64,000 nt of DNA from Pseudomonadota bacterium (GTDB lineage Bacteria; Pseudomonadota; Gammaproteobacteria; Burkholderiales; Thiobacillaceae): the NCBI GenBank assembly GCA_030653935.1, contig JAURYL010000113.1:1-64000 (forward strand), written 5' to 3'. The position numbers were made by a program, and so were the translations under genes. The notes under the pieces are model-generated. The model was not told the DNA's origin. It made no database searches and was given only the letters and a program-made list of their open reading frames with translations. Every line of letters begins with the position of its first letter. The stretch's first letter is position 1. Positions 5,476 through 63,480 of the stretch are shown here, piece by piece.

Positions 5476-7943
5476 CGAAAAAAACATCCGCCAAAACCGA
5501 ACAAGTTACGCCCGCCACGCCCGCTAAATCTTCGCGGCCTCGTGCCGGCGCCAGGGCGAAACAGCCCGTCGCTCAACTCCTGGATACGCCGTCCATGCCG
5601 CCACCGACCGCGCCACCGATGACGACACCGATCGCGCCACCGGCGAAGTCGTCCGCGAAGCCGCCCCGGCGTGGCCAGAAGGCCTTGCGCTGGCAAGACC
5701 CGTTCCTGGAACGTGAGCGCGCCAAATATGGCCACGCCATGCCGAGTAGGGAGTTCATCCTGCAACTGGTGATCGAGGCGCCCGGCCCGGTCGAGGCCGA
5801 TGAATTCGCCGTGCGACTGGGCTTGGAGGCGGACGAGATGGATGCCTTCATGATCCGTCTGCGCGCCATGCAGCGAGACGGCCAGATCATGCTCAACCGC
5901 CGTGGCGCCCTGTGCCTGCCGGAGAAGATCGAGGTGAAGGCCGGTCGCGTCGACGGCCATGCCGATGGTTTCGGCTTCTTCATCCCGGACGACAAGTCGG
6001 GCGACATGTTCCTGCATGAGAAAGAGATGCGCGGCCTGCTCCACGGCGACCGCGTGATGGTGCGCGAACATGGCCTGGACCGGCGTGGGCGCAAGGAAGG
6101 CAAGGTGGTGGAGGTTCTGGAACGGGCCAATACCCATCTGGTGGGGCGCCTTTACCGGGAACGCGGCTACCAGTGGGTGGTGGCGGAGAACAAGCGCATC
6201 AGCCAGGACATCCTGGTGCCCGACCATCAGGATATGGGCGCTTCCAACGGCAATGTGGTGATGGTGGAGGTCGTTGATCAGCCGACCAAGCACGCGCCGC
6301 CGGTGGGCAAGGTCATCCAGATTCTGGGCAACTATGCCGATCCCGGCATGGAAATCGAGATTGCCCTGCGCAAACACGATCTGCCGAACGCGTTTTCCGA
6401 CGACGTCCTGGCGCAGGCCAAGAAGTTGCCCAAAGGCGTGCTGAAAAAAGACCTGGGCGCCGACCGCGAAGACGTTCGCAAATTGCCGCTGGTGACCATC
6501 GATGGCGAGGATGCCCGCGACTTCGACGATGCCGTGTATTGCCAGCCGGAAGGGCGCGGTTTCCGCCTCTGGGTGGCGATCGCCGATGTTTCCCACTATG
6601 TCCAGCCGGGTTCGCCACTGGATGTGTCGGCGCTGGAACGCGGCACCTCGGTGTATTTCCCGCGCCGGGTGATTCCCATGCTGCCGGAGGAACTCTCCAA
6701 CGGCCTGTGCTCGCTCAATCCCGAGGTTGACCGTCTGTGTATGGTCTGCGAGATGGAGATTTCCAGCTTCGGCAACATCAAGAAGCACCGCTTCTACCCG
6801 GCGGTGATGCACTCCAAGGCGCGCCTGACCTACAACCAGGTCTGGGACTGGCTTGAAGCCGGCGAGGCGCCCGAAGACAAGGCCTGGGCGCTGCCGCATC
6901 TGCAAAATCTCTACAAGTTGTTCAAGGTGTTGTTGAAGGCGCGTGGCAAGCGTGGTGCCATCGACTTCGAAACGGTGGAAACCAAGATGCTGTTCGATGA
7001 ACACGACAAGATCGAACGCATCGTCGCCACCACCCGCAACGACGCGCACCGCTTGATCGAGGAATGCATGCTGGCGGCCAACGTCTGTGCCTCCGAATTC
7101 CTGCAGAAGAAGAAGCATCCCGCCCTGTATCGGGTGCACGAAGGGCCGACGCCGGAGAAACTGAAGGCGTTGCAGGCATTCCTCGCCGAATTCGGCTTCT
7201 TCATCACCGGCGGCGACGATCCGCACGCCAAGGATTACGCGGAGTTGTTGCTCAAGTTGAAGGGGCGCCCCGACGAGCAGTTGCTGCAAACCGTGCTGCT
7301 GCGTTCACTGCGCCAGGCCGTCTACAGCCCGGAGAATGCCGGCCATTTCGGCCTGGCTTATGAGGCCTACACCCACTTCACCTCACCGATCCGCCGCTAT
7401 CCCGACCTGCTGGTACACCGCGCGATCAAGGCCTGTCTGAAGGGTGAGGTCTACAACCCCGGAAAATGGGAAGACATCGGCGGCCAATGCTCGAAGAACG
7501 AGCGTCGCGCTGACGATGCCACCCGCGACGTGGTGGCCTGGCTCAAGTGCTACTACATGCAGGACAAGGTCGGCGAGGAGTTCGACGGCGTCATTTCCGC
7601 CGCCGTCAGTTTCGGCATGTTCGTGGCCTTGAACGAAGTGTTCGTGGAAGGCCTGGTGCACGTCACCGAACTCGGCCAGGACTACTTCCACTTCGACGCC
7701 GCCCGCCACCAGATGCTGGGCGAGCGCACCGGCAAACGCTTCCGCTTGGGCGACAAGGTGCGCGTTAAAGTTGCGCGCGTCGATCTGGAAACCACCCGCA
7801 TCGACTTCTCTCTGGTGGACAATGCCGCCGTCCCCGCCTCCTCCCCGAAGGGGCGCACGAAGCCCCCCTCGCCCGCGGGCGGGAGAGGGGCTGGGGGTGA
7901 GGGGAATTCCACGCCATCGTCCAAGAAAGCCCGAAAGAAATGA
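5469..7943 (+). CDS. rnr: Ribonuclease R
   Basis: A 3'-5' exoribonuclease that degrades structured RNA and acts in rRNA/tRNA quality control (family knowledge). With the start at ATG 5469 (MSTKKTSAK) the protein has 824 residues. It has an Ala/Pro-rich N-terminal tail to about residue 75, a winged-helix region (PSREFILQLV), cold-shock domains, and the RNB catalytic domain with DGEDARDFDDAVYC near 345. A C-terminal S1 domain and a basic tail follow. The track start at 5382 lies inside the tRNA and is not used. The last ~30 residues include SPAGGRGAGGEG, translated from a dispersed palindrome. It overlaps rlmB by ATGA. Confidence 0.95.
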   Translation: MSTKKTSAKTEQVTPATPAKSSRPRAGARAKQPVAQLLDTPSMPPPTAPPMTTPIAPPAKSSAKPPRRGQKALRWQDPFLERERAKYGHAMPSREFILQLVIEAPGPVEADEFAVRLGLEADEMDAFMIRLRAMQRDGQIMLNRRGALCLPEKIEVKAGRVDGHADGFGFFIPDDKSGDMFLHEKEMRGLLHGDRVMVREHGLDRRGRKEGKVVEVLERANTHLVGRLYRERGYQWVVAENKRISQDILVPDHQDMGASNGNVVMVEVVDQPTKHAPPVGKVIQILGNYADPGMEIEIALRKHDLPNAFSDDVLAQAKKLPKGVLKKDLGADREDVRKLPLVTIDGEDARDFDDAVYCQPEGRGFRLWVAIADVSHYVQPGSPLDVSALERGTSVYFPRRVIPMLPEELSNGLCSLNPEVDRLCMVCEMEISSFGNIKKHRFYPAVMHSKARLTYNQVWDWLEAGEAPEDKAWALPHLQNLYKLFKVLLKARGKRGAIDFETVETKMLFDEHDKIERIVATTRNDAHRLIEECMLAANVCASEFLQKKKHPALYRVHEGPTPEKLKALQAFLAEFGFFITGGDDPHAKDYAELLLKLKGRPDEQLLQTVLLRSLRQAVYSPENAGHFGLAYEAYTHFTSPIRRYPDLLVHRAIKACLKGEVYNPGKWEDIGGQCSKNERRADDATRDVVAWLKCYYMQDKVGEEFDGVISAAVSFGMFVALNEVFVEGLVHVTELGQDYFHFDAARHQMLGERTGKRFRLGDKVRVKVARVDLETTRIDFSLVDNAAVPASSPKGRTKPPSPAGGRGAGGEGNSTPSSKKARKK
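7864..7905. repeat. Dispersed palindrome inside the 3' end of rnr
   Basis: CCCCTCGCCCGC-GGGCGGGAGAGGGG followed by CTGGGGGTGAGGGGA is a palindrome of a kind common in proteobacterial intergenic DNA. Here it is translated in frame as part of the RNase R tail. Confidence 0.65.
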
Positions 7944-8686
7944 GCCAAAGAGTCCTGATCCACGGTTTCCATGCCGTCACCGCGCGTCTGCGCCACCACC
8001 CGGAAAGCATCCAGGTCATCTACATGGATGAAAGCCGGCGCGACCGCCGCGCCAAGGACCTGGTCAAGGTCGCCGAGGACAAGAACGTGCGCGTGGTCAT
8101 GGCCAACGGCGCCCGCGTCGACGAAATGGCGCGCGGCAAGTCGCAAGGCGTGGTCGCCCAGGCCAGCCAGATCGAACTCGCCCGCGACCTCGACGAGGTG
8201 CTGGACGACCTGAGCGAACCGGCGCTGTTGATGGTGCTAGATGGGGTAACCGATCCACACAATCTGGGTGCCTGTCTGCGTAGCGCCGATGCCTTCGGCG
8301 TGCATGCCGTGCTGGCGCCCAAGGATCGTTCCGCCGGCCTCTCGGCGGTGGCGATGAAGGCGGCCAGCGGCGCGGCGGACTCGATTCCTTACCTGACCGT
8401 CACCAACCTGGCGCGGATTCTGCGCGACCTGAAGGATCGCGGCATTCTCATCATCGGCACCGACGACGAAGCGCCCGCCAGCCTGATGGACGCCGACTTC
8501 ACCAGTGCCGCCGCCCTGGTGCTGGGCGCGGAAGGCGCCGGTATGCGCCGGTTGACGAAGGAGCATTGCGACGTCCTGGTCAGCATCCCGATGTTCGGCC
8601 AGGTAGAAAGCCTCAACGTCTCGGTTTCCGCCGGGGTGTGCCTGTATGAAGCGCGCCGGCAAAGGACGCTGGCTGGGAAAAGGTAG
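7940..8686 (+). CDS. rlmB: 23S rRNA (guanosine(2251)-2'-O)-methyltransferase RlmB
   Basis: A SPOUT-class methyltransferase that 2'-O-methylates G2251 of 23S rRNA with SAM. The 248 residues match family length. The N-terminal substrate-binding domain covers about 1-75. SPOUT motifs are TDPHNLGACLRSADAFG (motif 1), LGAEGAGMRRL (motif 2) and SIPMFGQVESLNVSVSAG (motif 3, knot). The start ATG overlaps the rnr stop (ATGA), giving the translationally coupled rnr-rlmB pair typical of beta- and gammaproteobacteria. Its TAG stop lies within the first bases of a palindromic repeat. Confidence 0.96.
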   Translation: MSQRVLIHGFHAVTARLRHHPESIQVIYMDESRRDRRAKDLVKVAEDKNVRVVMANGARVDEMARGKSQGVVAQASQIELARDLDEVLDDLSEPALLMVLDGVTDPHNLGACLRSADAFGVHAVLAPKDRSAGLSAVAMKAASGAADSIPYLTVTNLARILRDLKDRGILIIGTDDEAPASLMDADFTSAAALVLGAEGAGMRRLTKEHCDVLVSIPMFGQVESLNVSVSAGVCLYEARRQRTLAGKR

Positions 8687-8738
8687 CGCCGGCTTCCAGC
8701 CGGCAGATTTAAAGACGCCGGCTGGAAGCCGGCGCTAC
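8683..8738. repeat. Palindromic repeat, family D (GTAGCGCCGGC...)
   Basis: GTAGCGCCGGCTTCCAGCCGGC and its inverse GCCGGCTGGAAGCCGGCGCTAC are separated by a short AT-rich loop. Other family D copies lie at 17589-17743 and 31720-31761. This copy supplies the rlmB stop codon. Confidence 0.85.
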
Positions 8739-8751
8739 GGGAATACCGCGC

Positions 8752-9297
8752 ATGAACCAGAAAGACGCCTGGAAACTGATCAACAACGCCGAACTGCTGC
8801 ACGGCGCCACTGAAATCGAATTGGCGCTCGACCATCTCGCCGCCCGCATCAGCGACGCCCTCGCCGATTCCTTTCCGGTCGCCCTCTGCGTCATGGGTGG
8901 CGGCGTGGTGTTCGCCGGCAAACTGCTGCCGCGCCTGGGATTTCCCCTGGAATTCGATTACCTGCATGCCACTCGTTACCGCAGCGGCACGCGCGGCGGC
9001 GAAATCGAATGGGCGGTGTTGCCGCGCATGGATTTGAGTGGTCGCACCGTGCTGGTCATGGATGACATCCTCGACGAAGGCCATACCCTCGCCGCCGCCA
9101 AACAACGCCTGCTGGAACTGGGCGTCGCCGACGTGAAAATCGCCGTGCTGGCGGACAAGGAACTCGGCCGCGAGAAGCCCATTACCGCCGATTTCATCGG
9201 CTTGTCACTCCCCGACCGCTACGTGTTCGGCATGGGCATGGACGCCTACGGACTCTGGCGCAATCTGCCGGGAATCTACGCAATGAAGGATGGTTGA
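8752..9297 (+). CDS. hpt: Hypoxanthine-guanine phosphoribosyltransferase
   Basis: Converts hypoxanthine or guanine plus PRPP to IMP or GMP in purine salvage. The 181 residues form a type I PRTase. The PRPP-binding loop is VLVMDDILDEGHTL (about 101-114). The pyrophosphate-loop region is CVMGGGVVFAG, the flexible loop contains ATRYRSG, and the C-terminal hood is DRYVFGMGMDAYGLWRNLPGIYA. The probable MTI/MTA phosphorylase downstream would release hypoxanthine or adenine, so the two genes may work together. Two unrelated small genes separate them. Confidence 0.9.
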   Translation: MNQKDAWKLINNAELLHGATEIELALDHLAARISDALADSFPVALCVMGGGVVFAGKLLPRLGFPLEFDYLHATRYRSGTRGGEIEWAVLPRMDLSGRTVLVMDDILDEGHTLAAAKQRLLELGVADVKIAVLADKELGREKPITADFIGLSLPDRYVFGMGMDAYGLWRNLPGIYAMKDG

Positions 9298-9341
9298 GAC
9301 TGGGTGGGTGATAGTCTTGGTTACCGCACAGGAGGTGTGAC

Positions 9342-9563
9342 ATGTACGCTGAACGCATCATTCTTGAAACGGATTCCCTTGGCCACCTGAAGCAGCAACC
9401 CCGGTTACCACCCAACAAGGCGGTTGAGGCCATCTTTCTGGTTCTCGACGAATCGGAACACCAGCTTGTCCGCCGCCCGCACCCTGAAATCGTCGGCAAG
9501 GTGCGAATCCTTGGTGACATCCTGGACAGCGTGCCGGAAATTGACTGGGATTTGCCGCGATGA
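9342..9563 (+). CDS. Small conserved-looking protein, possible antitoxin-like
   Basis: 73 residues starting MYAERIILETDSLG and ending in an acidic EIDWDLPR tail. A strong ribosome site (AGGAGG) lies 7 nt before the ATG. The core PPNKAVEAIFLVLDE resembles small proteins often found next to PIN toxins, but no toxin follows here. It overlaps a possible upstream ATG of the aspartyl-protease-like gene. No function can be assigned from sequence alone. Confidence 0.65.
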   Translation: MYAERIILETDSLGHLKQQPRLPPNKAVEAIFLVLDESEHQLVRRPHPEIVGKVRILGDILDSVPEIDWDLPR

Positions 9564-9628
9564 TCGCAGCACATACTCGGACGGTTACACAAACCGATCA
9601 TCAACCTATCGTCCCACAGGAGTCCGTG

Positions 9629-10009
9629 ATGGGTCTGGCCTATGCCACTTTGCAGTTGACCAATCTTTTCAATCGGAAGTCCGTCCAGGTCGAAGCCCTG
9701 GTCGATACAGGCGCGACATTCATGTGTGTCACCGAGGAGATCGCCACGCAACTGGGTTTCGATGTCACGGAAGTCAGCCAGCAAGTCGTCACCTTGGCGG
9801 ACGGCCATATGCGCAAGGTTCCGAAGATCGCGCCCATAGAAATCGCATTCGAAAACCGGTCTTACGTGACCGAGGCGATCGTGCTGGGCAACGAGCCTTT
9901 GCTCGGCGTCATACCGCTGGAGGCGATGGACTTGATCGTCGATCCCCGCCGGCAGAGGGTGGTGGTCAACCCCCAGCATCCCAATTATCCGGTCGCGCTG
10001 GCCAAATAG
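9629..10009 (+). CDS. Retropepsin-like aspartyl protease fold protein (clan AA)
   Basis: 126 residues with the single aspartyl-protease motif ALVDTGATFMCV (Asp-Thr-Gly near residue 30) and the hydrophobic-hydrophobic-Gly region LLGVIPLEAMDL. This is the size of half a pepsin, so it would act as a dimer. The start at 9629 (MGLAYATLQL) is chosen over 9560 because AGGAG lies 7 nt upstream and family members usually start MGL. It is co-oriented with the 73-residue gene before it. The substrate is unknown. Confidence 0.75.
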   Translation: MGLAYATLQLTNLFNRKSVQVEALVDTGATFMCVTEEIATQLGFDVTEVSQQVVTLADGHMRKVPKIAPIEIAFENRSYVTEAIVLGNEPLLGVIPLEAMDLIVDPRRQRVVVNPQHPNYPVALAK

Positions 10010-10997: not shown

Positions 10998-11522
10998 ATG
11001 CCTATCCGCGACATCCTGCGCATGGGCGATGCGCGCCTGCTGCAAGTAGCCGAGAAAGTGGACGTTTTCGATACCTCGGAACTGCATGCGCTGGTCACCG
11101 ACCTCATCGAGACCATGCATGCCAACGACGGCGCCGGCCTGGCCGCGCCGCAGATCGGGGTGAATCTGCAAGTGGTGGTATTCGGTGTGGAGAGCAACCC
11201 GCGTTATCCGGATGCCGAAGTGGTGCCGTTCACGGTGTTGGTCAATCCGGTCCTGACAGCCTTGTCGGAGGAAGTGGAGGAGGGCTGGGAAGGCTGCCTG
11301 TCCTTGCCCGGCCTGCGCGGCAAGGTGCCGCGCCACACTCGTCTGCGCTACAGCGGCTTCGATCAATTCGGGCAGGCCATAGCGCGTGAGGTGAGCGGCT
11401 TCCATGCACGGGTCGTGCAACATGAAACCGACCACCTCTGGGGCATCCTCTATCCCCGGCGGATACGCGACCTGCGCAATTTCGGCTTCAGCGACGTGCT
11501 GTCACCCGAGCGCACGGCCTGA
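10998..11522 (+). CDS. def: Peptide deformylase
   Basis: Removes the N-formyl group from nascent proteins; an Fe(II)/metal hydrolase. The three family motifs are present: [11 protein letters not shown] (about 49-59), EGCLSLPG with the metal-binding Cys, and QHETDHLWG with the two metal His and catalytic Glu. The 174 residues match the usual length. It is preceded directly by a family B palindrome and stands alone before the flagellin promoter. It may be the main deformylase or a paralogue; no fmt follows it here. Confidence 0.95.
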
Positions 11523-11557
11523 ACCAGGCGCGGTTCAAAAAATATTTCAAAAAAACC

Positions 11558-11584
11558 TAAAGTTTTTTCAGCCATGACCGAAAA
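11558..11584 (+). promoter_or_regulatory. Sigma28 (FliA)-type promoter of flagellin
   Basis: TAAAGTTT (11558-11565), an 11-nt spacer, then ACCGAAAA (11577-11584). The consensus is TAAAGTTT-N11-GCCGATAA. It lies 80 bp upstream of the flagellin ATG, which has AAGGAG at 11651-11656. Confidence 0.85.
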
Positions 11585-11663
11585 CGGGGCAAGGCAAGGA
11601 AGTTCATCCAAGCCTCGGAGGCAGAAGCCCTCCCTCAATCGACCCTAGAAAAGGAGTTTTATC

Positions 11664-12584
11664 ATGGCAATCGGTGACATCAGCCTTACCTCTTCAATGC
11701 GTTCCAACTTGATGGGCCTGCAGAACACTTCAAGGCTGCTGGCAAGTACCGAGGAACGTCTTTCCAGTGGCAAGCGCGTCGGCACGGCAGTCGACAACCC
11801 CGCCAACTTTTTTGCGGCGCAAGGCCACAATACCCGCGCCAACCTGCTGACCGGCCTCAAGGACAACATCAGTGAAGCCATTCAGACGGTGAAGTCCGCG
11901 GATTCCGGCATCAAGGGCGTGCTTTCCACCATTGAAGCCCTGCGCGGTATCGTCACCCAGGCGCGTTCCGCCATCAACGACACGGTCAACAGCGGGACGA
12001 TCCTGGCCGGCTCGAACGCGGCGGATGCAACCGGCTTTACTGGTACTGCCGGCCTGACCGGGCAGTACAACCGCTTGGTCGAGCAGTTGAACAACCTGGT
12101 GACCGACTCCAGCTACAAGGGCACCAACTTCCTGACCAGCGGTAGCGTGACGCTGACGGTGAACCTGAACGAGAACGCCACGACCAAGATCGTGATGTCC
12201 GGCTTCAACTCCGGCGCCAGCGGCTTGGCCATTTCCGGTGGTGGTACTTCTCTGACCGTCGCGGGAACGACCGGTAGCATCACGGCAAAGGATCTCGACA
12301 GCGCGGCCGAACTGGATGCGATCGAGGCTACGCTGAATACCGCGATTGCGACCTTGCAAACCAAGGCCTCCGAGCTGTCGTCCAACCTCAATACGCTGAC
12401 GACCAGACAGACCTTCATTACCGACATGGTGAACACCTTGACCGTCGGTGCGACCAAGTTGACCGAGGCCGACACCAATGAGGAGGGGGCGAACCTGCTC
12501 TCGCTGCAAACCAAGCAGTCGTTGGGGACTACCGCACTGAGTATTTCCTCGCAGGCTGAACAGGGCATCTTGAGACTGTTCTAA
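11664..12584 (+). CDS. fliC: Flagellin
   Basis: The 306-residue flagellar filament subunit. The conserved N-terminal D0/D1 helices contain TEERLSSGKRVGTAVDNPANFFAAQ. The C-terminal coiled region holds TRQTFITDMVNTLTVGATKLT and ends QAEQGILRLF. The central Ser/Thr/Gly-rich D2/D3-like part (about 110-215) is short and a plausible O-glycan acceptor. Transcription is from the sigma28-type promoter. FlbT, FlaF and a pseudaminic acid pathway follow, pointing to FlaF/FlbT-controlled export or translation and to glycosylation. The N-terminal part looks closer to alphaproteobacterial-type flagellins than to E. coli FliC. Confidence 0.95.
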   Translation: MAIGDISLTSSMRSNLMGLQNTSRLLASTEERLSSGKRVGTAVDNPANFFAAQGHNTRANLLTGLKDNISEAIQTVKSADSGIKGVLSTIEALRGIVTQARSAINDTVNSGTILAGSNAADATGFTGTAGLTGQYNRLVEQLNNLVTDSSYKGTNFLTSGSVTLTVNLNENATTKIVMSGFNSGASGLAISGGGTSLTVAGTTGSITAKDLDSAAELDAIEATLNTAIATLQTKASELSSNLNTLTTRQTFITDMVNTLTVGATKLTEADTNEEGANLLSLQTKQSLGTTALSISSQAEQGILRLF

Positions 12585-12609
12585 TCGGGTGATGCTCGGT
12601 AACTTGACT

Positions 12610-12641
12610 CGTGTGAGCTCACGGGCTCACACGGGAGGAGG
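12610..12641 (+). promoter_or_regulatory. Hairpin directly before a strong ribosome site
   Basis: CGTGTGAGC (12610-12618) pairs perfectly with GCTCACACG (12625-12633) around a 6-nt loop. GGAGGAGGG follows immediately and the ATG is at 12647. There is no U-tract, so it is not an ordinary terminator. It could control translation or stabilise the flagellin mRNA end. Confidence 0.6.
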
Positions 12642-12646
12642 GTGAA

Positions 12647-13423
12647 ATGGTCACTGAAATCTCAGGGACTGGTGTTAGTCACTCGGTAGCTAGTCAAACT
12701 GGTACAACGGCCGCGCAACGGCCTGTTGGGACGGTTCGTCCGGATGATGCAGGGTTGTCGCGGCCAGGTGCGTCGCGTGACAAGCAGGTGCTGGCTTCCA
12801 CTCAGGTGGCGGGTACCTATGCACAGTTGCGCGTCCGTCAAGATGCTTTGAATCAGGCTGCGTCGGTGGTTCGCGAAGTGAGCGATACGGTTGAGCAATC
12901 GGACAAATTGCTGGGCAAGGTCGAGAATAATCTGGGTGAGATCGTGAAAATGTACCCGCCTTATCCGATTGACAGCCCGCAACGAATCTCTTTGCTTAAC
13001 GATATTTCTGGTTTGCGCAAACAGATTGAGGCACTGACTTTCCCGCCTTCGGATACGGTTGACGCCGTTGGACGCCTGCTTGGAAAGCAGGCAGACGCCA
13101 CTGATACGGCAGGCGATACTGCCACGAAGCTGGACACGCTTGCAGCCATCAGGGATCAGATGTGGGATATCCCCGCGCTTGACCCCCTGGCGGCAAGCAA
13201 TGCGGAAGTAAGCGAGGCGTTTGACCAGGTCAAAGCCACAAAGTCATCTCTTGAAGATTTGAAAAATGGCATGTGGGACGACGTGGCCAGTTTTGTGAAA
13301 CAGGCGCAGTCGCCTGAAGCGCAAAACGAAGCGGCCGGTGTCCGTGGTCAGCTTGCCGATCTTGGCAATCTTGGGATCGGTAGCAACGCAAGCCAGTTGA
13401 ACCAGGCTGTCGAGTCGAAGTAA
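12647..13423 (+). CDS. Unknown protein of the flagellin locus, predicted alpha-helical
   Basis: 258 residues, not recognised. The first ~45 residues are low-complexity Ser/Thr/Gln. Long heptad-like helices follow (about 60-100, including VVREVSDTVEQSDKLLGKVENNLGEIV as a feature). A Pro-rich turn MYPPYPID (near 103) and further helices with ISGLRKQIEAL and DQVKATKSSLEDLKN come next. No signal peptide or membrane segment is seen. It sits between flagellin and flbT with a strong GGAGG site, so a flagellar role (export partner, minor filament or hook-associated protein, or FlaG/FliD-like helper) is inferred only from position. Confidence 0.75.
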   Translation: MVTEISGTGVSHSVASQTGTTAAQRPVGTVRPDDAGLSRPGASRDKQVLASTQVAGTYAQLRVRQDALNQAASVVREVSDTVEQSDKLLGKVENNLGEIVKMYPPYPIDSPQRISLLNDISGLRKQIEALTFPPSDTVDAVGRLLGKQADATDTAGDTATKLDTLAAIRDQMWDIPALDPLAASNAEVSEAFDQVKATKSSLEDLKNGMWDDVASFVKQAQSPEAQNEAAGVRGQLADLGNLGIGSNASQLNQAVESK

Positions 13424-13439
13424 CGGAGAGGTAGGGCAA

Positions 13440-13838
13440 ATGCCTCTAAAACTTGATTTGCGGCCCCACGAGAAGTTGTTTCTCGGTGGGGCCGTTCTCG
13501 TTAACGGCGACAGTCGCTGTCAGTTGACTGTCCTGAACGATGTTCCGGTATTGCGCGAGAAAGACATCCTCAAGGAAGAGGATGCCGACACACCCTGTAA
13601 ACGGATCTATCTCGCGGTTCAGATGATGTACATGGATGCCCCCAGTCTGGCGCGCTACCACCAGTATTACTGGGAGCAGGTGAAGGCTGTGGTCGAGGTG
13701 GCACCCAGCACCACGGAACGAATCGGCAAGGTGAGCGATTTCGTGCTGGAAGGGCAGTATTACCAGGCGCTGAAAGCGGCGCGAGAATTGATTCGTTACG
13801 AACAGGAGTTGCTCAGCAATGCCCGCAAACCCGCTTGA
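13440..13838 (+). CDS. flbT: Flagellar biosynthesis repressor FlbT
   Basis: In Caulobacter, FlbT binds flagellin mRNA and ties flagellin translation to hook completion (family knowledge). The 132 residues start MPLKLDLRPHEKLFLGGAVLVNG, the classic FlbT opening, and contain RIYLAVQMMYMD and VLEGQYYQALKAARELIRYE. GGAGAGG precedes the ATG. The gene overlaps flaF by 20 bp. This pair is typical of alphaproteobacteria and uncommon in beta/gamma lineages. Confidence 0.93.
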   Translation: MPLKLDLRPHEKLFLGGAVLVNGDSRCQLTVLNDVPVLREKDILKEEDADTPCKRIYLAVQMMYMDAPSLARYHQYYWEQVKAVVEVAPSTTERIGKVSDFVLEGQYYQALKAARELIRYEQELLSNARKPA

Positions 13839-14196
13839 TGCCTACCGTAGCGTGGAAAAAGCCACGTTGTCGCAACGCGATCTCGAAGCGACCGTGTTGA
13901 CCAAGGCGGCCCAGCAATTGCAGCAGCTCAAGGATAACTGGACGCGCGAGGATCACGACGCACAACTCGAAGATGCGCTCAGCTACAACCAGCGTGTCTG
14001 GACCTTCTTTCAGGCGGAGTTGTCGGTGGAGGACAACCCATTGCCCGAGGAAATCAGGCGCAATCTGCTGGCCCTCAGTTTTTTCGTGGATCGCCGCTCC
14101 TTCGAGGTTCTGGCCTATCCGGCTCCCGAGAAGCTCGATATTCTCATCAGCATCAACAACAACGTCGCGGCGGGATTGCGCGGTGATGCCGGCTGA
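13819..14196 (+). CDS. flaF: Flagellar biosynthesis regulator FlaF
   Basis: FlaF acts with FlbT as a positive factor or chaperone for flagellin synthesis and secretion. The 125 residues include NPLDAYRSVEK, ARE-type helices, ALSYNQRVWTFFQAELSVEDNPLPEEIRRNLLALS and FVDRRSFEVL, all typical of the FlaF family. AGGAG lies just upstream inside flbT. It overlaps flbT, so the two are translated together. Confidence 0.93.
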   Translation: MPANPLDAYRSVEKATLSQRDLEATVLTKAAQQLQQLKDNWTREDHDAQLEDALSYNQRVWTFFQAELSVEDNPLPEEIRRNLLALSFFVDRRSFEVLAYPAPEKLDILISINNNVAAGLRGDAG

Positions 14197-14201
14197 GGTA
14201 A

Positions 14202-16389
<2,188 letters not shown>

Positions 16390-16393
<4 letters not shown>

Positions 16394-17091
16394 AACTCTG
16401 CGTGATTCCCGCGCGCGGCGGCAGCAAGCGGATCCCACGCAAGAACATCCGCCTGTTCGCCGGCCGCCCGATCGTCGCCTGGTCCATCCAGGCCGCGCTG
16501 GATTCCGGCTTGTTCGACCGCGTGATGGTGTCTACCGATGACCCGGAGATCGCCGAAGTGGCGCGTGCCCACGGCGCGGAAATCCCGTTCTTGCGCCCCC
16601 GCGAGTTGGCCGACGACCACACCGGCACCAACGCCGTGGCCAAACAGGCCATCCGCTGGCATGGTGAGCAAGGCATATCGGTGGAATACGCATGCTGTCT
16701 CTATGCCACCGCCCCGTTTGTGCGCGCCGCTGATCTGCGTGATGCGCATGAGCGTCTGGTGGATTCCGGCAAATCCTTCGTGTTCTCCGTCACCAGCTTT
16801 CCCTTTCCCATCCAGCGCGCGCTGCGGCTCAATTCCCAAGGTGAAGTGGAAGCGATGTACCCGGAATACCGCACCACCCGCTCGCAAGACCTGGAGCCGG
16901 CCTGGCACGATGCCGGCCAGTTTTACTGGGGCCGTGCGGAGGCATTCCTGAGCGACGAGATATTGTTCTCGCCCGCTTCCCTGCCGTTCATCCTGCCGCG
17001 GCATCGGGTACAGGATATCGACAGCGAGGAAGACTGGCTGCGCGCCGAGTTGATGCACCAAGCAATGTTGCTGTCGGAAAATGCGGCGTGA
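16390..17091 (+). CDS. pseF: Pseudaminic acid cytidylyltransferase PseF
   Basis: Activates pseudaminic acid to CMP-Pse with CTP. The 233 residues match the CMP-nonulosonate synthetase family. The nucleotide-binding N-terminus is VIPARGGSKRIPRKNI, with STDDPEIAEVA and FLRPRELADDHTGTN following. A late QDIDSEEDWLRAE is typical of PseF/NeuA. The ATGA overlap with pseC implies coupling. In simple pse operons pseG follows directly; here a toxin-antitoxin pair intervenes. Confidence 0.95.
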
Positions 17092-17193: not shown

Positions 17194-17463
17194 ATGTCAA
17201 CCCATCAAATTTCTGTGCGCGACCTGAGAGGGCGGCTTTCCGACTGCCTTCATGCAGTCGCAGCGGGTGAGACGCTGCTGATTACATCGCGCAATCGCCC
17301 GGTAGCCCGTTTGCTTGCTGTTCAGGCCAGCCCGGAAGGGCTGCCCGATATACCTGGAGTGGCTTGGTCAACCGCGTCGCCACAGGTGAGCAGGCCCGTT
17401 GCGGAATGCCCGCCCATCACCGGTGAAACGTTGGCGGATTGGGTGATCGCCAACCGTCGCTAA
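17194..17463 (+). CDS. Phd/YefM-family antitoxin
   Basis: 89 residues with the Phd fold opening: HQISVRDLRGRLSDCLHAVAAGETLLITSRNRPVARL, a typical DNA-binding and dimerisation half. An extended C-terminal region (about 50-89) should bind and block the toxin. The partner PIN gene is 299 bp downstream rather than adjacent, because repeats lie between them. The TGTACA operator upstream fits autoregulation. Confidence 0.88.
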   Translation: MSTHQISVRDLRGRLSDCLHAVAAGETLLITSRNRPVARLLAVQASPEGLPDIPGVAWSTASPQVSRPVAECPPITGETLADWVIANRR

Positions 17464-17762
17464 CGATCATGGCGGCGAGGCCTGATGAAGCCCCCGATAA
17501 CGCTCCCAAGCTGCAGAACCAAACAGGTAGCCCGGATGGAGCGAAGGCGGAATCCGGGAAGGGGTGTGGCGCGTTCCCTGGATATCCCTGTAGCGCCGGC
17601 GCCCTCGCTGGCGTCCGGCCAGCGATGCAAAAGTGCGCCGCACCACCAGAACCGCCCATTGCGGGTGCAGATGGAGCGGCTTTGGGGACGCAGCGGTTGT
17701 CTCGTATTGCTGGCCGGACGCCGGCGAGGGCGCCGGCGCTACAGCCCCTAAGGAATGAGTGA
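17464..17762. repeat. Repeat-filled gap between antitoxin and toxin (family C half-element and family D)
   Basis: A left part (17516-17578) carries GAACCAAACAGGTAGCCCGGATG and a following stretch also present at about 29207-29270, i.e. half of a family C element. A right part (17589-17743) has TGTAGCGCCGGCGCC... at one end and its inverse ...GGCGCCGGCGCTACA at the other (family D with a ~70 bp loop). No gene is supported; ORFs 17417-17659, 17439-17762 and 17485-17751 are translations of repeats. Confidence 0.85.
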
Positions 17763-18212
17763 ATGTCTGCGCCGATCTGTTATTTCGACACCTCTGCTCT
17801 GGTCAAACTGTACGTTCTCGAAGCAGGTAGTAGCGAGATTGCCGCGTTGTTTGGCAGTTCAGAACGATGCGCATGCCATGAAATTGCCTACGTGGAAACA
17901 CGCGCGGCCCTGGCCAGTGCGTTGCGTGGCGGGCGTCTGGATAGCGTCGCCCACGCCGCTTGCGTCAGCCGTTTCGTTTCCGACTGGCAGACTTCCATTT
18001 CCTATGTGAGAACCGACCCAGACCTGTTGCTCCGGGCTGCGGAGTTGGCGGAAGGCTTTGCCTTGCGTGGCTACGATGCCATGCATCTGGCCAGTGCAGA
18101 TCGTTTGCTTACCGTTTTACCTGCCACCCTGTTCGTGAGTTTCGATCAGGTGTTGAACCGGGCTGCCAAGCTGCTCGGATTTACCTTGCCGCCCTTTGTG
18201 CCCATCGCCTGA
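17763..18212 (+). CDS. PIN-domain ribonuclease toxin (VapC-like)
   Basis: A 149-residue PIN domain with the expected acidic residues: CYFDTSALVKLY (first Asp), EIAYVETRAAL (Glu), GYDAMHLASADRL (Asp) and VSFDQVLNRAAKLLG (last Asp). PIN toxins cut tRNA or rRNA. The likely antitoxin is the Phd-type protein upstream. The pair sits between pseF and pseG and may have entered as a cargo module. It lacks its own evident promoter, and its ribosome site is weak (AAGGAATGAGTGA). Confidence 0.88.
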   Translation: MSAPICYFDTSALVKLYVLEAGSSEIAALFGSSERCACHEIAYVETRAALASALRGGRLDSVAHAACVSRFVSDWQTSISYVRTDPDLLLRAAELAEGFALRGYDAMHLASADRLLTVLPATLFVSFDQVLNRAAKLLGFTLPPFVPIA

Positions 18213-36163: not shown

Positions 36164-36532
36164 ATGTTGGATCAACTCACCCTTTCCGGTCGTGAACTGC
36201 TCGTTTTCGTGATCCTCGCCGGGGTCTTCGCCACGGTGTTGTATCTCCTGGAAACGTTGCTGTTCTCGCGCCGCCGCAAGTCCGCCGCGCGGATGGAACA
36301 GGACGCGCGTTTTTTGGCCCTGCAAGTCGAACTCGCCGAGGTCAGGACGCGGCTGGAGTTGCTGGAGGCGAAGCCACCGGTGGAATCCTCGTTCGACACC
36401 CAGGCCGTCACTTATGCCGAGGCCATGCGTCTGGCGCGGGAAGGCGTCTCGGCGTCCGATCTGGCCGGGCGGCTCGGCATCTCCCGCAGTGAAGCCGAAC
36501 TCATCATCGCCTTGCGGCACGCCGATTCATGA
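36164..36532 (+). CDS. DUF2802 family membrane protein
   Basis: 122 residues: an N-terminal transmembrane helix (about 12-32, LLVFVILAGVFATVLYLLETLLF), a coiled-coil stretch (about 42-66) and a C-terminal HTH-like part (YAEAMRLAREGVSASDLAGRLGISRSEAELI). This layout is typical of DUF2802, usually encoded among flagellar and chemotaxis genes in beta/gammaproteobacteria. The function is unknown. It overlaps the FliK-like gene by 4 bp. Confidence 0.88.
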   Translation: MLDQLTLSGRELLVFVILAGVFATVLYLLETLLFSRRRKSAARMEQDARFLALQVELAEVRTRLELLEAKPPVESSFDTQAVTYAEAMRLAREGVSASDLAGRLGISRSEAELIIALRHADS

Positions 36533-37734
36533 ATCTCTCCGCCCTGCCGCAGTTGCTCACCGCCTGGCTGAAAACTCAGGGCGCCGAGTTGCTGGAGGCG
36601 GGCAAGAACGCGCCGGCGGCGAACAAGGAAGCCTTTCAGCCGGGTGCGAGTTATCAGGGCAAGGTGCTGGAAAACCTGGCGAACGGCCGCAACCTGGTCC
36701 AGGTCGGTGGCCAGAACGTCAGCATGGCCTTGCCGCGCGGCACCCAGGCCGGCGACACGGTGCGCCTGACCTTTCTCCATAACACGCCGCGTCCCACCTT
36801 CATCATGGAACGGCCGGCGGTCAGCGCCGTGCAGCCGGTGCGGCTGTCGCAGAGCGCGCAGCAACTCACCGCCCTGGCGCAACTGGCGCGACCGAGCGCC
36901 ACCGCTTCGGCGGCGCCACCGCCCACCTCGCCCAGCGCCGCGCAACTCGCGCAGGCCGGCGTTGCCGCGCAACGGCCCATCCTCGGCAATACCGCACCCT
37001 TGGCGAATCCGCCTTCGCTCAGCGGCGGCGGCACCTTGCCGATGAACGCATTGACCGGCGCTTTCGCCTCCGCCACCGCCCTGACCGGCGGCACACCGGT
37101 CGCCGGCACCCGCGCCGGCCTTGCCGCCGGCAGCACCACTTCCAACCTCGCCGCGCTGCAACCTGGCGTCTCCGACAGCCAGGCGGCCCTGCCGCAACGC
37201 CTGCACCAGACCTTGCGCGAAAGCGGTTTGTTCTACGAGGCGCACCTGGCGCGCTGGTCGCGCGGCACCTTCGAGCTGGCCGATCTGCGCAATGAACCCC
37301 AGTCCCGCTTCGTCGCCGGCGGCCATGCCATGGCCACGGCCGCCGGTCTCACCGGCATGCCGGAGGAAGCCGCGCGCCTGGCTGGTCGCCAGTTGCTGAT
37401 GCTGGAAGGCGCGCCGTTCTTCTGGCAGGGCTTTGCCTGGCCCGGACAGTGGTTGGAGTGGCAGGTGCGGGAACAGTCGGGTGGCGCGGGCGACGGCGAG
37501 GACGACGTCAATACCTGGGCCACCGAATTGCGCCTGACCCTGCCGCGCATGGGTGGCATCACCGCCCGACTGTCGCTGGCGGGCGAGCGGCTCACCGTCG
37601 GCTTGAGCGCGACCGAGACCAGTACCCAGGAAGCGCTGCGCGCGGCCTTGCCGGCGCTGGAGCAGGCGTTGACGGCGGCGGGCCTGAAACCGGCCGGACT
37701 CGGGGTCGGTCAGGCGGATGCGCTCGCGGCCTGA
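36529..37734 (+). CDS. Flagellar hook-length control protein (FliK-like)
   Basis: 401 residues. The long Ala/Pro/Ser-rich low-complexity middle (about 95-220) is as expected for a molecular ruler. The C-terminal domain (about 300-395) has LRLTLPRMGGITARLSLAGERLTVGLSATETSTQEALRAALPALEQALTAAGL, matching the Flg_hook fold. A second and more classical fliK lies at 60594, so this one may serve another role or be a paralogue. It overlaps the FhlB-like gene by 17 bp. Confidence 0.85.
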   Translation: MNLSALPQLLTAWLKTQGAELLEAGKNAPAANKEAFQPGASYQGKVLENLANGRNLVQVGGQNVSMALPRGTQAGDTVRLTFLHNTPRPTFIMERPAVSAVQPVRLSQSAQQLTALAQLARPSATASAAPPPTSPSAAQLAQAGVAAQRPILGNTAPLANPPSLSGGGTLPMNALTGAFASATALTGGTPVAGTRAGLAAGSTTSNLAALQPGVSDSQAALPQRLHQTLRESGLFYEAHLARWSRGTFELADLRNEPQSRFVAGGHAMATAAGLTGMPEEAARLAGRQLLMLEGAPFFWQGFAWPGQWLEWQVREQSGGAGDGEDDVNTWATELRLTLPRMGGITARLSLAGERLTVGLSATETSTQEALRAALPALEQALTAAGLKPAGLGVGQADALAA

Positions 37735-38005
37735 GCCTGTTTCCCAGGCCGTCGCCCTGGTCTATGACCCGGACGACGGCGCGCCCCGCGTCCTCGCCAA
37801 GGGACGCGGCCTTCTGGCCGAGGAGATCATCGCCCGTGCCCAGTCCGCCGGCGTCTTCGTGCATGAATCGCCGGAACTGGTCTCGCTGTTGATGCAGGTG
37901 GACATGGACGCGCGTATTCCCCCGGAGTTGTACATCGCCGTGGCGGAGTTGCTGGCCTGGCTGTATCAACTGGAGCAGCAGGTTGAACCTGGAAACGGCG
38001 GTTGA
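37718..38005 (+). CDS. FhlB-like protein (FlhB C-terminal-domain homologue)
   Basis: 95 residues similar to the cytoplasmic C-terminal part of FlhB/EscU: VALVYDPDDGAPRVLAKGRGLLAEEIIARAQSAGVFVHESPELVSLL, with DARIPPELYIAVAELLAWLY following. There is no NPTH autocleavage motif and no membrane part. Such stand-alone FhlB proteins accompany FliK-like genes and are thought to affect export specificity. Confidence 0.88.
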   Translation: MRSRPEPVSQAVALVYDPDDGAPRVLAKGRGLLAEEIIARAQSAGVFVHESPELVSLLMQVDMDARIPPELYIAVAELLAWLYQLEQQVEPGNGG

Positions 38006-60061: not shown

Positions 60062-60535
60062 ATGGCTTCGGTGAACAAAGTGATTTTGATCGGCAACCTG
60101 GGGAAAGACCCGGAAACCCGTTATATGCCCAGTGGCGAGGCGGTGACCAACATCACGTTGGCGACCACGGATACCTGGAAGGACAAGAACAGCGGTGACA
60201 AACGCGAGGCCACCGAGTGGCATCGGGTGGTCTTTTTCCGCAAGTTGGCTGAAATTGCCAGCCAATACCTGCGCAAGGGCTCCCAGGTTTATATCGAGGG
60301 CTCACTGAAGACGCGCAAATGGCAGGATCAGTCCGGCCAGGATCGATACACCACCGAGATCGTCGCCGATGAAATGAGAATGCTCGGTTCGCGCCAGGGC
60401 GGCGCCAACAGCGGCACCGCCGACTATGACGCGCCGCCGATGGAAAGCGCACCGCGCGGCAAGCCTGCCGGTGGAGCCGCCGCAAGCGCCCCGGGTGGCG
60501 GCTTCGGTGAGATGGACGACGATATTCCCTTCTAG
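60062..60535 (+). CDS. ssb: Single-stranded DNA-binding protein
   Basis: 157 residues. The OB fold (1-110) starts [25 protein letters not shown] and has [31 protein letters not shown] flexible Gly/Ala/Pro linker leads to the acidic tip MDDDIPF that binds repair and replication proteins. MFS-ssb order is common in betaproteobacteria (ssb next to uvrA or an MFS gene). Confidence 0.97.
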
Positions 60536-60593
60536 AACGTTTGAGCCGGCATGGAACCTGCTTATCTGCCAGGCGAATGAACTGGAGATAATC

Positions 60594-61670
60594 ATGGCTG
60601 ATTTCATGACCGTGTTGGCGGCTTCCCAGAAACAAGCGCCCACGGCGGCCCATGGCAAGGCTTTGGCGGGGCTGCTGCCGGAAGGCCTGTTCGAGAACGT
60701 GCTTTCCGCGCAGATGGGCGCGGCGGAAACGCCGGCGCTCTTGCCGCCGTTGCTGTTGTCCGAACAGGTCACGCTGGCAGACCAGCCACCGGCCAGGAAG
60801 CCGCCGCCGCAGCAGATTGTCGAGGCGGAAAAAGCGGCGGACGTCGCACTGTTGCCAATTGCCGTGGCCAATGTGGCGGTCAAGGCCGCGTCCGCTACGT
60901 CCGCTACGGATGCCGACGAGCCCGCGGCCGAGTTGGCGCCGCGTGTGCTTCGAACCATGCAGTCGAAAATGGCGCCGGAGATGGCGGCAACTTCTGCCGC
61001 TTCCGGGGTTGGGCAAAGGCAAGAATTGCCGTTGACGCCGGCGCAACAAGTGCTTGCGCTGGGCGGTGCCCAGGCCAGCACCCAGGCCGCCGCTTTGCTG
61101 GAAGGGGGCGGCGAGGTGTTGCCGCCGTTGACGGCTGTGACCACGCCGGTGGAGGCGGGCAGACCGCTGGACCCGTCCGTGCTCGCCGCCACGCGCCAAC
61201 TCGGCCCGTTGGAGCAATTTGCGCGAACCGCTGAAGCGCCCATCCGCGCCACGCTCGATGCGCCCTTGCGTAGCCAGGGCTTCCCCGCCGAGTTTTCCGA
61301 AAAGATCGTCTGGTTGGTTGGGCGCCAGGCGCAATCGGCTGATCTTTCCTTGAATCCACCGCAATTAGGCGCATTGGAAGTGCGCCTGTCGCTCTCCGGG
61401 AGTGAGGCGGGCGCGCAGTTCTACTCGCCGAACCCGCTGGTCAGGGAGGCCATCGAGTCCGCGTTGCCCAGGCTGCGCGAGTTGATGGCGCAGGCCGGCA
61501 TCATGCTCGGTGATGCGCAAGTGCGCGACGAGGCATTTTCCCGAGACGAGGCGGGCGGTTCCGCGCGCGCCGGAGCCAAGCTGACCGCCGACGAGGCGAA
61601 TGCCGCGCTCGCGCCCTTGGCTGGTGGCGTGGTTCGCGCCGGCCTGGGCCTGATCGATCTCTACGCGTAG
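60594..61670 (+). CDS. fliK: Flagellar hook-length control protein FliK
   Basis: 358 residues from ATG 60594 (MADFMTVLAASQK) with TGGAGA upstream; the tracked start 60426 is inside ssb. The N-terminal Ala/Pro-rich ruler region precedes the Flg_hook domain (about 225-315): EFSEKIVWLVGRQAQSADLSLNPPQLGALEVRLSLSG and LRELMAQAGIMLGDAQV. These are the standard FliK signatures. The fliK-fliL-fliM-fliN order is the conserved flagellar operon. Confidence 0.93.
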   Translation: MADFMTVLAASQKQAPTAAHGKALAGLLPEGLFENVLSAQMGAAETPALLPPLLLSEQVTLADQPPARKPPPQQIVEAEKAADVALLPIAVANVAVKAASATSATDADEPAAELAPRVLRTMQSKMAPEMAATSAASGVGQRQELPLTPAQQVLALGGAQASTQAAALLEGGGEVLPPLTAVTTPVEAGRPLDPSVLAATRQLGPLEQFARTAEAPIRATLDAPLRSQGFPAEFSEKIVWLVGRQAQSADLSLNPPQLGALEVRLSLSGSEAGAQFYSPNPLVREAIESALPRLRELMAQAGIMLGDAQVRDEAFSRDEAGGSARAGAKLTADEANAALAPLAGGVVRAGLGLIDLYA

Positions 61671-62481: not shown

Positions 62482-63480
62482 ATGGCTGACGACATCCTTT
62501 CCCAGGAGGAGGTTGACGCCCTGCTGCGCGGGGTGACCGGCGAGCCTGACGACGCGGCCGCGGAGGAGGGCAGCGGCGGGGTGCGCGCCTATGACATCGG
62601 TCGTCAGGAACGGATCGTGCGTGGGCGCATGCCGACGCTGGAGATCATCAATGAACGATTCGCGCGCAATTTCCGCGTTGGCCTGTTCAACCTGATCCGC
62701 CGCAACGCGGAGATTTCCGTCGGACCGGTGACCGTCATCAAGTACAGCGAGTTCGTGCGCAACCTGGTGGTTCCGACCAACCTGAACATGGTGCACATGA
62801 ACCCGCTGCGCGGCACCGCCCTGTTCGTGTTCGATCCGAATCTGGTGTTCCTGGTGGTGGATAACCTGTTCGGCGGTGACGGCCGCTATCACATGCGTGT
62901 GGAAGGGCGCGATTTCACACCCACCGAGCAGCGCATCATCCGGAAAATGCTGGACGTGGTCTTCGAGGAAATGAAGAAAGCCTGGGAATCCATCTATCCA
63001 GTTGAATTTGAATTCGTGCGTTCGGAGATGAATACCCAGTTCGCCAATATCGCCACGCCGACCGAGGTCGTGGTGGTGAATACCTTCAATATCGAGCTGG
63101 GTTCCGGCGGCGGCGATTTTCACGTCTGCATGCCCTACAGTATGATCGAGCCGATCAGAGACCAGCTCACCAGCACCATGCAGGCCGACCGCGCCGAGCT
63201 GGACGAGCGTTGGGTCTCGCAGATGTCGTTGCAGGTGCAGGACGCGGAAGTGGAACTGGTCGCGAATCTCGGCCAGGCGCCCGTGACCCTGCGTCAGATT
63301 ATCGATCTCAAGGTGGGTGATGTGATCTCCCTGGAAGTACCCGAAGCCGTGGTGGCGGAAGTCGATGGTGTGCCGCTGTTCCAGTGCCACTATGGTCAGA
63401 AGAACGGACAGTTGGCGCTCAAGGTTGATCGTGTGCTCAATGGCCCGGATCGCATGGCCTGTGTCGGGAGCAAGCGATGA
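62482..63480 (+). CDS. fliM: Flagellar motor switch protein FliM
   Basis: 332 residues. The N-terminal CheY-P binding motif is DDILSQEEVDALLRGV. The middle CheC-like domain has ERIVRGRMPTLEIINERFARNFR and DNLFGGDGRYHMRVEGRDFTPTEQRIIRKML. The C-terminal SpoA domain (about 250-325) ends it. It is part of the C-ring. It overlaps fliN by 4 bp. Confidence 0.97.
   Translation: MADDILSQEEVDALLRGVTGEPDDAAAEEGSGGVRAYDIGRQERIVRGRMPTLEIINERFARNFRVGLFNLIRRNAEISVGPVTVIKYSEFVRNLVVPTNLNMVHMNPLRGTALFVFDPNLVFLVVDNLFGGDGRYHMRVEGRDFTPTEQRIIRKMLDVVFEEMKKAWESIYPVEFEFVRSEMNTQFANIATPTEVVVVNTFNIELGSGGGDFHVCMPYSMIEPIRDQLTSTMQADRAELDERWVSQMSLQVQDAEVELVANLGQAPVTLRQIIDLKVGDVISLEVPEAVVAEVDGVPLFQCHYGQKNGQLALKVDRVLNGPDRMACVGSKR

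Follow-up and report, generated by a model that had tools for sequence, protein, structure and literature searches.

An alphaproteobacterial-type flagellin-flbT-flaF cassette in a betaproteobacterial genome and a candidate FlbT recognition hairpin in its flagellin leader

We found a run of four genes, all on the plus strand, that begins with a flagellin of alphaproteobacterial type in a genome assigned to the Thiobacillaceae. The genes lie in a 64,000-nucleotide stretch of contig JAURYL010000113.1 (the window, meaning the whole stretch of DNA that was analysed). The flagellin gene (11664..12584; 306 aa; PF00669, 9e-12; PF00700, 2.5e-6) is followed by orf258 (12647..13423; 258 aa), flbT (13440..13838; 132 aa; PF07378, 1.5e-43) and flaF (13819..14196; 125 aa; PF07309, 9.6e-34), and the last 20 bases of flbT are shared with the start of flaF. 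A preliminary description of this DNA had placed a flagellin, flbT and flaF set here, and the Pfam matches to all three families bear it out; orf258 was absent from that description.

The FlbT protein matched model positions 1-125 of 125 of PF07378 with 148 bits (cut-off 27), placing it in the family. It fell below the cut-offs of two NCBIfam equivalogs (NF009432, 128.4 vs 153; NF001995, 112.9 vs 125). That is, it is homologous to these equivalogs yet scores under their thresholds for functional equivalence. FlaF exceeded its curated cut-offs (PF07309, 116 bits vs 23.6; NF009435, 121.8 vs 91). By synteny and by the trees described below, the linked flagellin, FlbT and FlaF are of the type found in the alphaproteobacterial FlbT/FlaF filament system. 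The flagellin is the sole filament flagellin found in the genome; a second Flagellin_N match, on contig C58, grouped with FlgL-like sequences in the tree. In this genome FlbT therefore has no second, regulatory flagellin of the FljJ kind to lean on.

The gene between flagellin and flbT matched no family in Pfam or NCBIfam. Its product has a conserved core, KxYPPxxxxxxR...LR...P, and is encoded in every betaproteobacterial module long enough to show the gene. We did not find it near flbT (within about 9 kb) in 40 alphaproteobacterial loci. Clear matches in a sample of the phylum came only from the two betaproteobacterial families that carry FlbT; this search scored few candidates per genome, so rare alphaproteobacterial homologues could have been missed. 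Weak matches in two genomes (G097 and G282; 21-22 bits) were judged to be chance. The predicted fold is mostly helical with low confidence (AF2 pLDDT 65), and the predicted structure had no fold match in the PDB at E<=0.001.

Three adjoining genes of nonulosonate type follow flaF on the plus strand (14241..17091), encoding a dehydratase (PF02719), an aminotransferase (PF01041) and a cytidylyltransferase (PF02348). We infer from these families a pathway that likely serves flagellin glycosylation, and the genes are candidate members of the same operon. They open a large nonulosonate and glycosylation region (14241-35550, plus strand) that contains genes for a dehydratase, a DegT aminotransferase, a cytidylyltransferase, a NeuB synthase, an AMP-binding enzyme, a cyclase and a 1627-aa protein with methyltransferase and GT2 domains. 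Within this region a gene for a PhdYefM-type antitoxin is followed by one for a PIN-domain toxin (17194-18212, plus strand). Further along, at 36529-38005 on the plus strand, a second FliK-domain protein, separate from the main fliK at 60426-61670, precedes a short protein that matches only the C-terminal part of FlhB.

Transcription of the flagellin gene appears to start from a sigma28 (FliA) promoter, TAAAGTTT-N11-ACCGAAAA, at 11558..11584 on the plus strand. Its first base, 11558, is 106 nt before the flagellin ATG, and the predicted transcript would begin near 11591. The site has 14 of the 16 sigma28 consensus bases; base-shuffled upstream regions had 9.5 on average and 11 at most. In the other betaproteobacterial modules, the flagellin copies that adjoin the promoter mostly scored 12.5-16 of 16; their sites were 105-115 nt from the ATG, apart from one at 130 nt. 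There were two exceptions: one module (L074) scored 11 and another (L075) had no clear sigma28 site. Regions upstream of alphaproteobacterial flagellins scored at the level of shuffled sequence. FliA was above its curated cut-off in all sampled betaproteobacteria with FlbT, including the window's genome (G000:C97:6380-7042, E 4e-78), and in none of 14 sampled alphaproteobacteria. The preliminary description had proposed both a sigma28-type promoter and a mixed regulatory circuit, and these results agree with it on both counts. Flagellin transcription in a system of the alphaproteobacterial kind would be independent of FliA and sigma28, and here a conserved promoter and a FliA gene are both present. 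The acquired genes would thus have been set under the late-flagellar switch of the host.

The basal body of the host is betaproteobacterial. The window contains fliM (62482..63480, plus strand), a vertical marker about 50 kb downstream of the cassette, and its product grouped with betaproteobacterial FliM. Since this gene is on the same contig as the cassette, the cassette is not a binning artefact, and contamination of the bin is ruled out. The FliM tree split beta- and gammaproteobacteria from alphaproteobacteria with full support (100/100), and the FlbT-bearing betaproteobacteria were on the betaproteobacterial side. Close relatives of the window's FlbT (82-98% identical) came from records titled Hydrogenophilales, Gallionellaceae, Tepidiphilus and Pseudomonadota, titles that are unreliable for such metagenome-assembled genomes. 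The host is best described as similar to Thiobacillaceae or Hydrogenophilales, and the FliM position upholds the betaproteobacterial setting that had been read from gene order.

FlbT has a narrow distribution in this part of the phylum. Of 399 genomes sampled in the order, 12 had it, and these 12 came from just two families, the window's (f1) and f21; this count rules out FlbT being widespread in the order. Wide presence in the class had been named beforehand as an outcome that would speak against transfer, and it was not seen. In the phylum sample 114 of 398 genomes had FlbT. Three of these belong to the window's class and to the same two families; the remaining 111 belong to other classes, and we read them as Alphaproteobacteria because the matching named control was Caulobacter. 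Closer to the window, FlbT was present in 19 of 23 genomes of its genus (the window's own counted) and in 7 of 14 from other genera of its family. We found no paper on FlbT in betaproteobacteria in the literature searched.

We searched 64 genomes for the flagellin chaperone FliS and the cap protein FliD. Neither was found in any of 21 FlbT-bearing betaproteobacteria, including the window's genome, and both were present in all 24 flagellated betaproteobacteria that lack FlbT. Five of these 24 belong to the window's family and have a canonical FliC. Both proteins were also absent from 13 of the 15 FlbT-bearing alphaproteobacteria searched; the two exceptions (G366 and G416) may hold a second flagellar system. 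The lack of FliS and FliD is a mark of the alphaproteobacterial FlbT/FlaF system, and the window's genome has it. As judged from gene content, the transfer is a replacement of the filament module (flagellin, cap and chaperone) rather than an addition of regulators. The host kept its own basal body and its own FliA/sigma28.

Two relatives differ from this pattern. In the FliM tree one member of the window's family (G031; loci L079 and L168) nested among those that carry FlbT (99/86). It has FliC, FliD and FliS, and its flagellin was closest to that of another family (99/90). This combination suggests at least one reverse swap of the cassette. A member of the window's genus (G020; loci L108 and L111) has FliM, and no filament flagellin, FlbT, FliS, FliD or FliA was found above cut-off. 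Its flagellum is probably being lost, or there is a gap in the assembly.

The leader of the flagellin mRNA contains a conserved RNA element that reaches the start codon (11615..11666, plus strand; 47 bits, E 4e-14 with the covariance model described below). Its hairpin, GGAGGC-AGAA-GCC(C)TCC, is at 11617..11633, with the AGAA loop at 11623-11626 and one bulged C in the window's species; a scan for perfect stems missed this hairpin because of the bulge. A second AGAA (11647-11650) lies in CCCTAGAAAAGGAG at 11643..11656 and overlaps the Shine-Dalgarno sequence AGGAG (11652-11656). The other betaproteobacterial leaders are similar: downstream of the promoter and about 36-47 nt ahead of the ATG lies a hairpin whose stem sequence differs widely and whose AGAA loop is invariant, followed at the Shine-Dalgarno sequence by a nearly invariant CCnAGAAnAGGAG.

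The stems of these hairpins covary. Among ten betaproteobacterial hairpins, all 8 of 8 stem pairs changed on both sides, 92.5% of cells paired, compared to 66.7% in shuffles, and the covariation score was above that of all 500 shuffles and of all slid versions. Hairpins were counted on fixed-length segments, since whole-leader MAFFT alignments shifted some AGAA loops by one column. Because the ten hairpins had been chosen in one register, we made a further test with no selection on pairing. Sites were chosen solely for their loop letters and their position, and 3' arms were permuted among sites, a procedure that removes sequence relatedness only partly. Betaproteobacterial sites had 5.09 paired bases, compared to 1.81 (sd 0.37) after permutation. 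Alphaproteobacterial ARAA sites at -60 to -20 had 2.68, compared to 1.09 (sd 0.14). In both cases 0 of 2000 permutations were as high. The covarying leader element is shared by the two groups. Controls from flagellins of the FliS type gave no signal, with only six sites in range. Pairing of the second AGAA had no covariation support in betaproteobacteria (410 of 2000 permutations as high), and the primary sequence of that region was almost invariant across the modules. The window's leader as a whole folded no better than shuffled sequence (z 0.77).

The hairpin is largely confined to flagellins. A strict ARAA hairpin was found before 15 of 29 alphaproteobacterial flagellins (52%) and 8 of 16 betaproteobacterial flagellins (50%), and before 7 of 474 and 4 of 251 other genes of the same loci, respectively (1.5-1.6%). 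It was found before 1 of 29 FliS-type flagellins. Alphaproteobacterial loops were mostly CAAAA or CAGAA. A covariance model (R1) built from ten betaproteobacterial leaders, with the window's leader excluded, recovered held-out betaproteobacterial leaders along with the window's. It gave one strong match in the window's genome (E 4e-13; next best 0.03). In 433 kb of alphaproteobacterial loci its six best matches all ended at a start codon; five of them open clear flagellins, and the best one (L035) opens an unusual flagellin-like frame. Part of the score stems from the Shine-Dalgarno sequence and the start codon.

FlbT binds the 5' UTR of flagellin mRNA, and FlaF acts as a chaperone for flagellin secretion (PMC3930126, PMC7591256). 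A 2015 review left the RNA motif for FlbT blank and the mechanism unresolved, and it noted that FlbT of Brucella was reported as an activator, not a repressor (PMC4347634). The shared leader element is consistent with FlbT acting through the flagellin 5' UTR. The AGAA hairpin is a new candidate for the FlbT recognition element, because it has an invariant loop on varying stems, is confined, in the set of genes examined, to flagellins from genomes with FlbT, and appears to have crossed classes with flbT. The leader element offers a concrete candidate, in sequence and structure, for the FlbT motif, and a handful of point mutations would suffice to test it. About 40% of FlbT-linked alphaproteobacterial leaders have no strict hairpin, so in those lineages FlbT may read a looser or a different feature. 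The original Caulobacter study reportedly considered a loop in the leader of fljK. If that loop is the AGAA element, the novelty would be the general code and not the element.

It is possible, though we think it unlikely, that the filament swap is real and the hairpin is not a site for FlbT. The hairpin could instead be a structure for mRNA stability or ribosome access in the highly expressed flagellins of this lineage, inherited with the gene. Element and flagellin would have been transferred together, so the linkage to FlbT is not independent; some FlbT-linked alphaproteobacterial flagellins do without the strict hairpin; and the second AGAA, given its overlap with the Shine-Dalgarno sequence, could be conserved for ribosome binding. 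However, invariant loop letters on a freely changing stem, as in the betaproteobacteria, are the mark of a protein that reads the loop, FliS-type flagellins are also highly expressed and all but one of those examined lack the hairpin, and FlbT is known to work by way of the flagellin leader. It is very improbable that CsrA binds the leader and that FlbT and FlaF act on the flagellin protein only. Betaproteobacterial leaders do have GGA triplets, and flagellin leaders of other bacteria are under CsrA control (PMC4894983), but the conserved loop is AGAA in betaproteobacteria and ARAA in alphaproteobacteria, not GGA.

The trees point to the Alphaproteobacteria as the source of the cassette. In the flagellin tree the 22 FlbT-linked betaproteobacterial flagellins formed one clade (99/98) within the alphaproteobacterial flagellins (100/99), adjoining families f71, f98, f66 and f110 (97/86), and on the opposite side were FliC of betaproteobacteria that lack FlbT and of E. 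coli; the bootstrap of this tree was not fully settled, and it was rooted on FliC to judge the nesting of the betaproteobacteria. Forcing the FlbT-linked flagellins together with other beta- and gammaproteobacterial flagellins cost 42 log units and was rejected (p-AU 0.008). In the tree of FlbT and FlaF the betaproteobacteria were again one clade (97/97), in a group (100/98) with families f63, f95, f77, f86, f73, f98, f71, f66 and f106. This tree had no outgroup, so the direction of transfer rests on the flagellin tree and the distribution. The nearest alphaproteobacterial families differed between the two trees, which together point to no one donor family. A locus from another genome of the window's genus (L066, genome G016, 5871-9809) has flagellins that group with family f21 (100/96) and an additional flagellin-flaF pair upstream, a hint that the cassette has moved between members of the clade.

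The preliminary description had suggested transfer and proposed that trees of these proteins be set against that of FliM. Flagellin and FlbT with FlaF grouped with alphaproteobacteria and FliM with betaproteobacteria, and the trees and the narrow distribution support transfer. On these sequences, the reading holds that the cassette was acquired horizontally and that its flagellin, flbT and flaF came from Alphaproteobacteria. Least probable of all is that the ancestor of both classes already had flbT, flaF and this type of flagellin, all of them lost elsewhere in the class: the betaproteobacteria do form a single clade in both trees, but this history requires that almost every other family sampled in the order and class has lost them, the betaproteobacterial flagellins nest within alphaproteobacterial diversity in the FliC-rooted tree, and other betaproteobacteria, even in the window's family, use the complementary FliC-FliD-FliS set.

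The account we favour, and consider probable as a whole, is a swap of the filament cassette. An alphaproteobacterial flagellin-flbT-flaF set, with orf258 between flagellin and flbT, would have replaced the native fliC-fliD-fliS on a betaproteobacterial hook-basal body. FliA of the host would transcribe the cassette with sigma28 specificity after hook completion. By analogy to Caulobacter, FlaF would substitute for FliS as the export chaperone of flagellin, and the cap protein FliD would be dispensed with, as in most of the sampled FlbT-bearing alphaproteobacteria. FlbT would recognise the AGAA-loop hairpin in the flagellin leader, and probably also the second AGAA at the Shine-Dalgarno sequence, and, acting as a repressor as in Caulobacter, would block translation or destabilise the flagellin message until export is possible. 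We propose that the leader element came along with the genes and was set under the host promoter. It would follow that one class can take over filament, chaperone and regulator from another as a single unit and still keep its native basal body and transcriptional switch. We are evenly divided on a broader notion, that the ARAA-loop hairpin is a general FlbT code in the flagellin mRNAs of Alphaproteobacteria and of this betaproteobacterial clade, moving within a transferable filament cassette that needs only a change of promoter to suit a foreign basal body.

Four known systems bear comparison with the one in the window. The flg-Rhizobiales RNA motif (RF01736), which has several stem-loops, is a candidate cis-regulatory RNA of Rhizobiales (PMC2864571, PMC3765529). 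The leader element is not a member of that family, nor does any other Rfam family describe it: Rfam gave only one unrelated family, below its cut-off, in positions 11450-14300 of the window at E<=5, and no match in 16 alphaproteobacterial loci at the gathering threshold. Control of flagellin by CsrA and FliW also ties flagellin synthesis to export post-transcriptionally through the mRNA leader, but the proteins are unrelated, and CsrA targets GGA whereas the window's element presents an AGAA loop. The canonical betaproteobacterial fliC-fliD-fliS operon has the same place in the assembly order, the same sigma28 promoter logic and the same host basal body. In contrast, all three of its protein families are replaced in the window, and those of its leaders that were examined as controls have no AGAA hairpin. 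The FlbT/FlaF system of Caulobacter and other Alphaproteobacteria is alike in having these protein families beside the flagellin, in doing without FliS or FliD, and in the presumed regulatory target in the flagellin leader. Caulobacter, however, has RpoN control and no FliA (PMC3930126), whereas the window has a sigma28 promoter and its genome has FliA. The window's system also differs from that of Caulobacter in having a single filament flagellin, with no FljJ-like regulatory flagellin, and in combining the cassette with orf258 and with a betaproteobacterial host and basal body.
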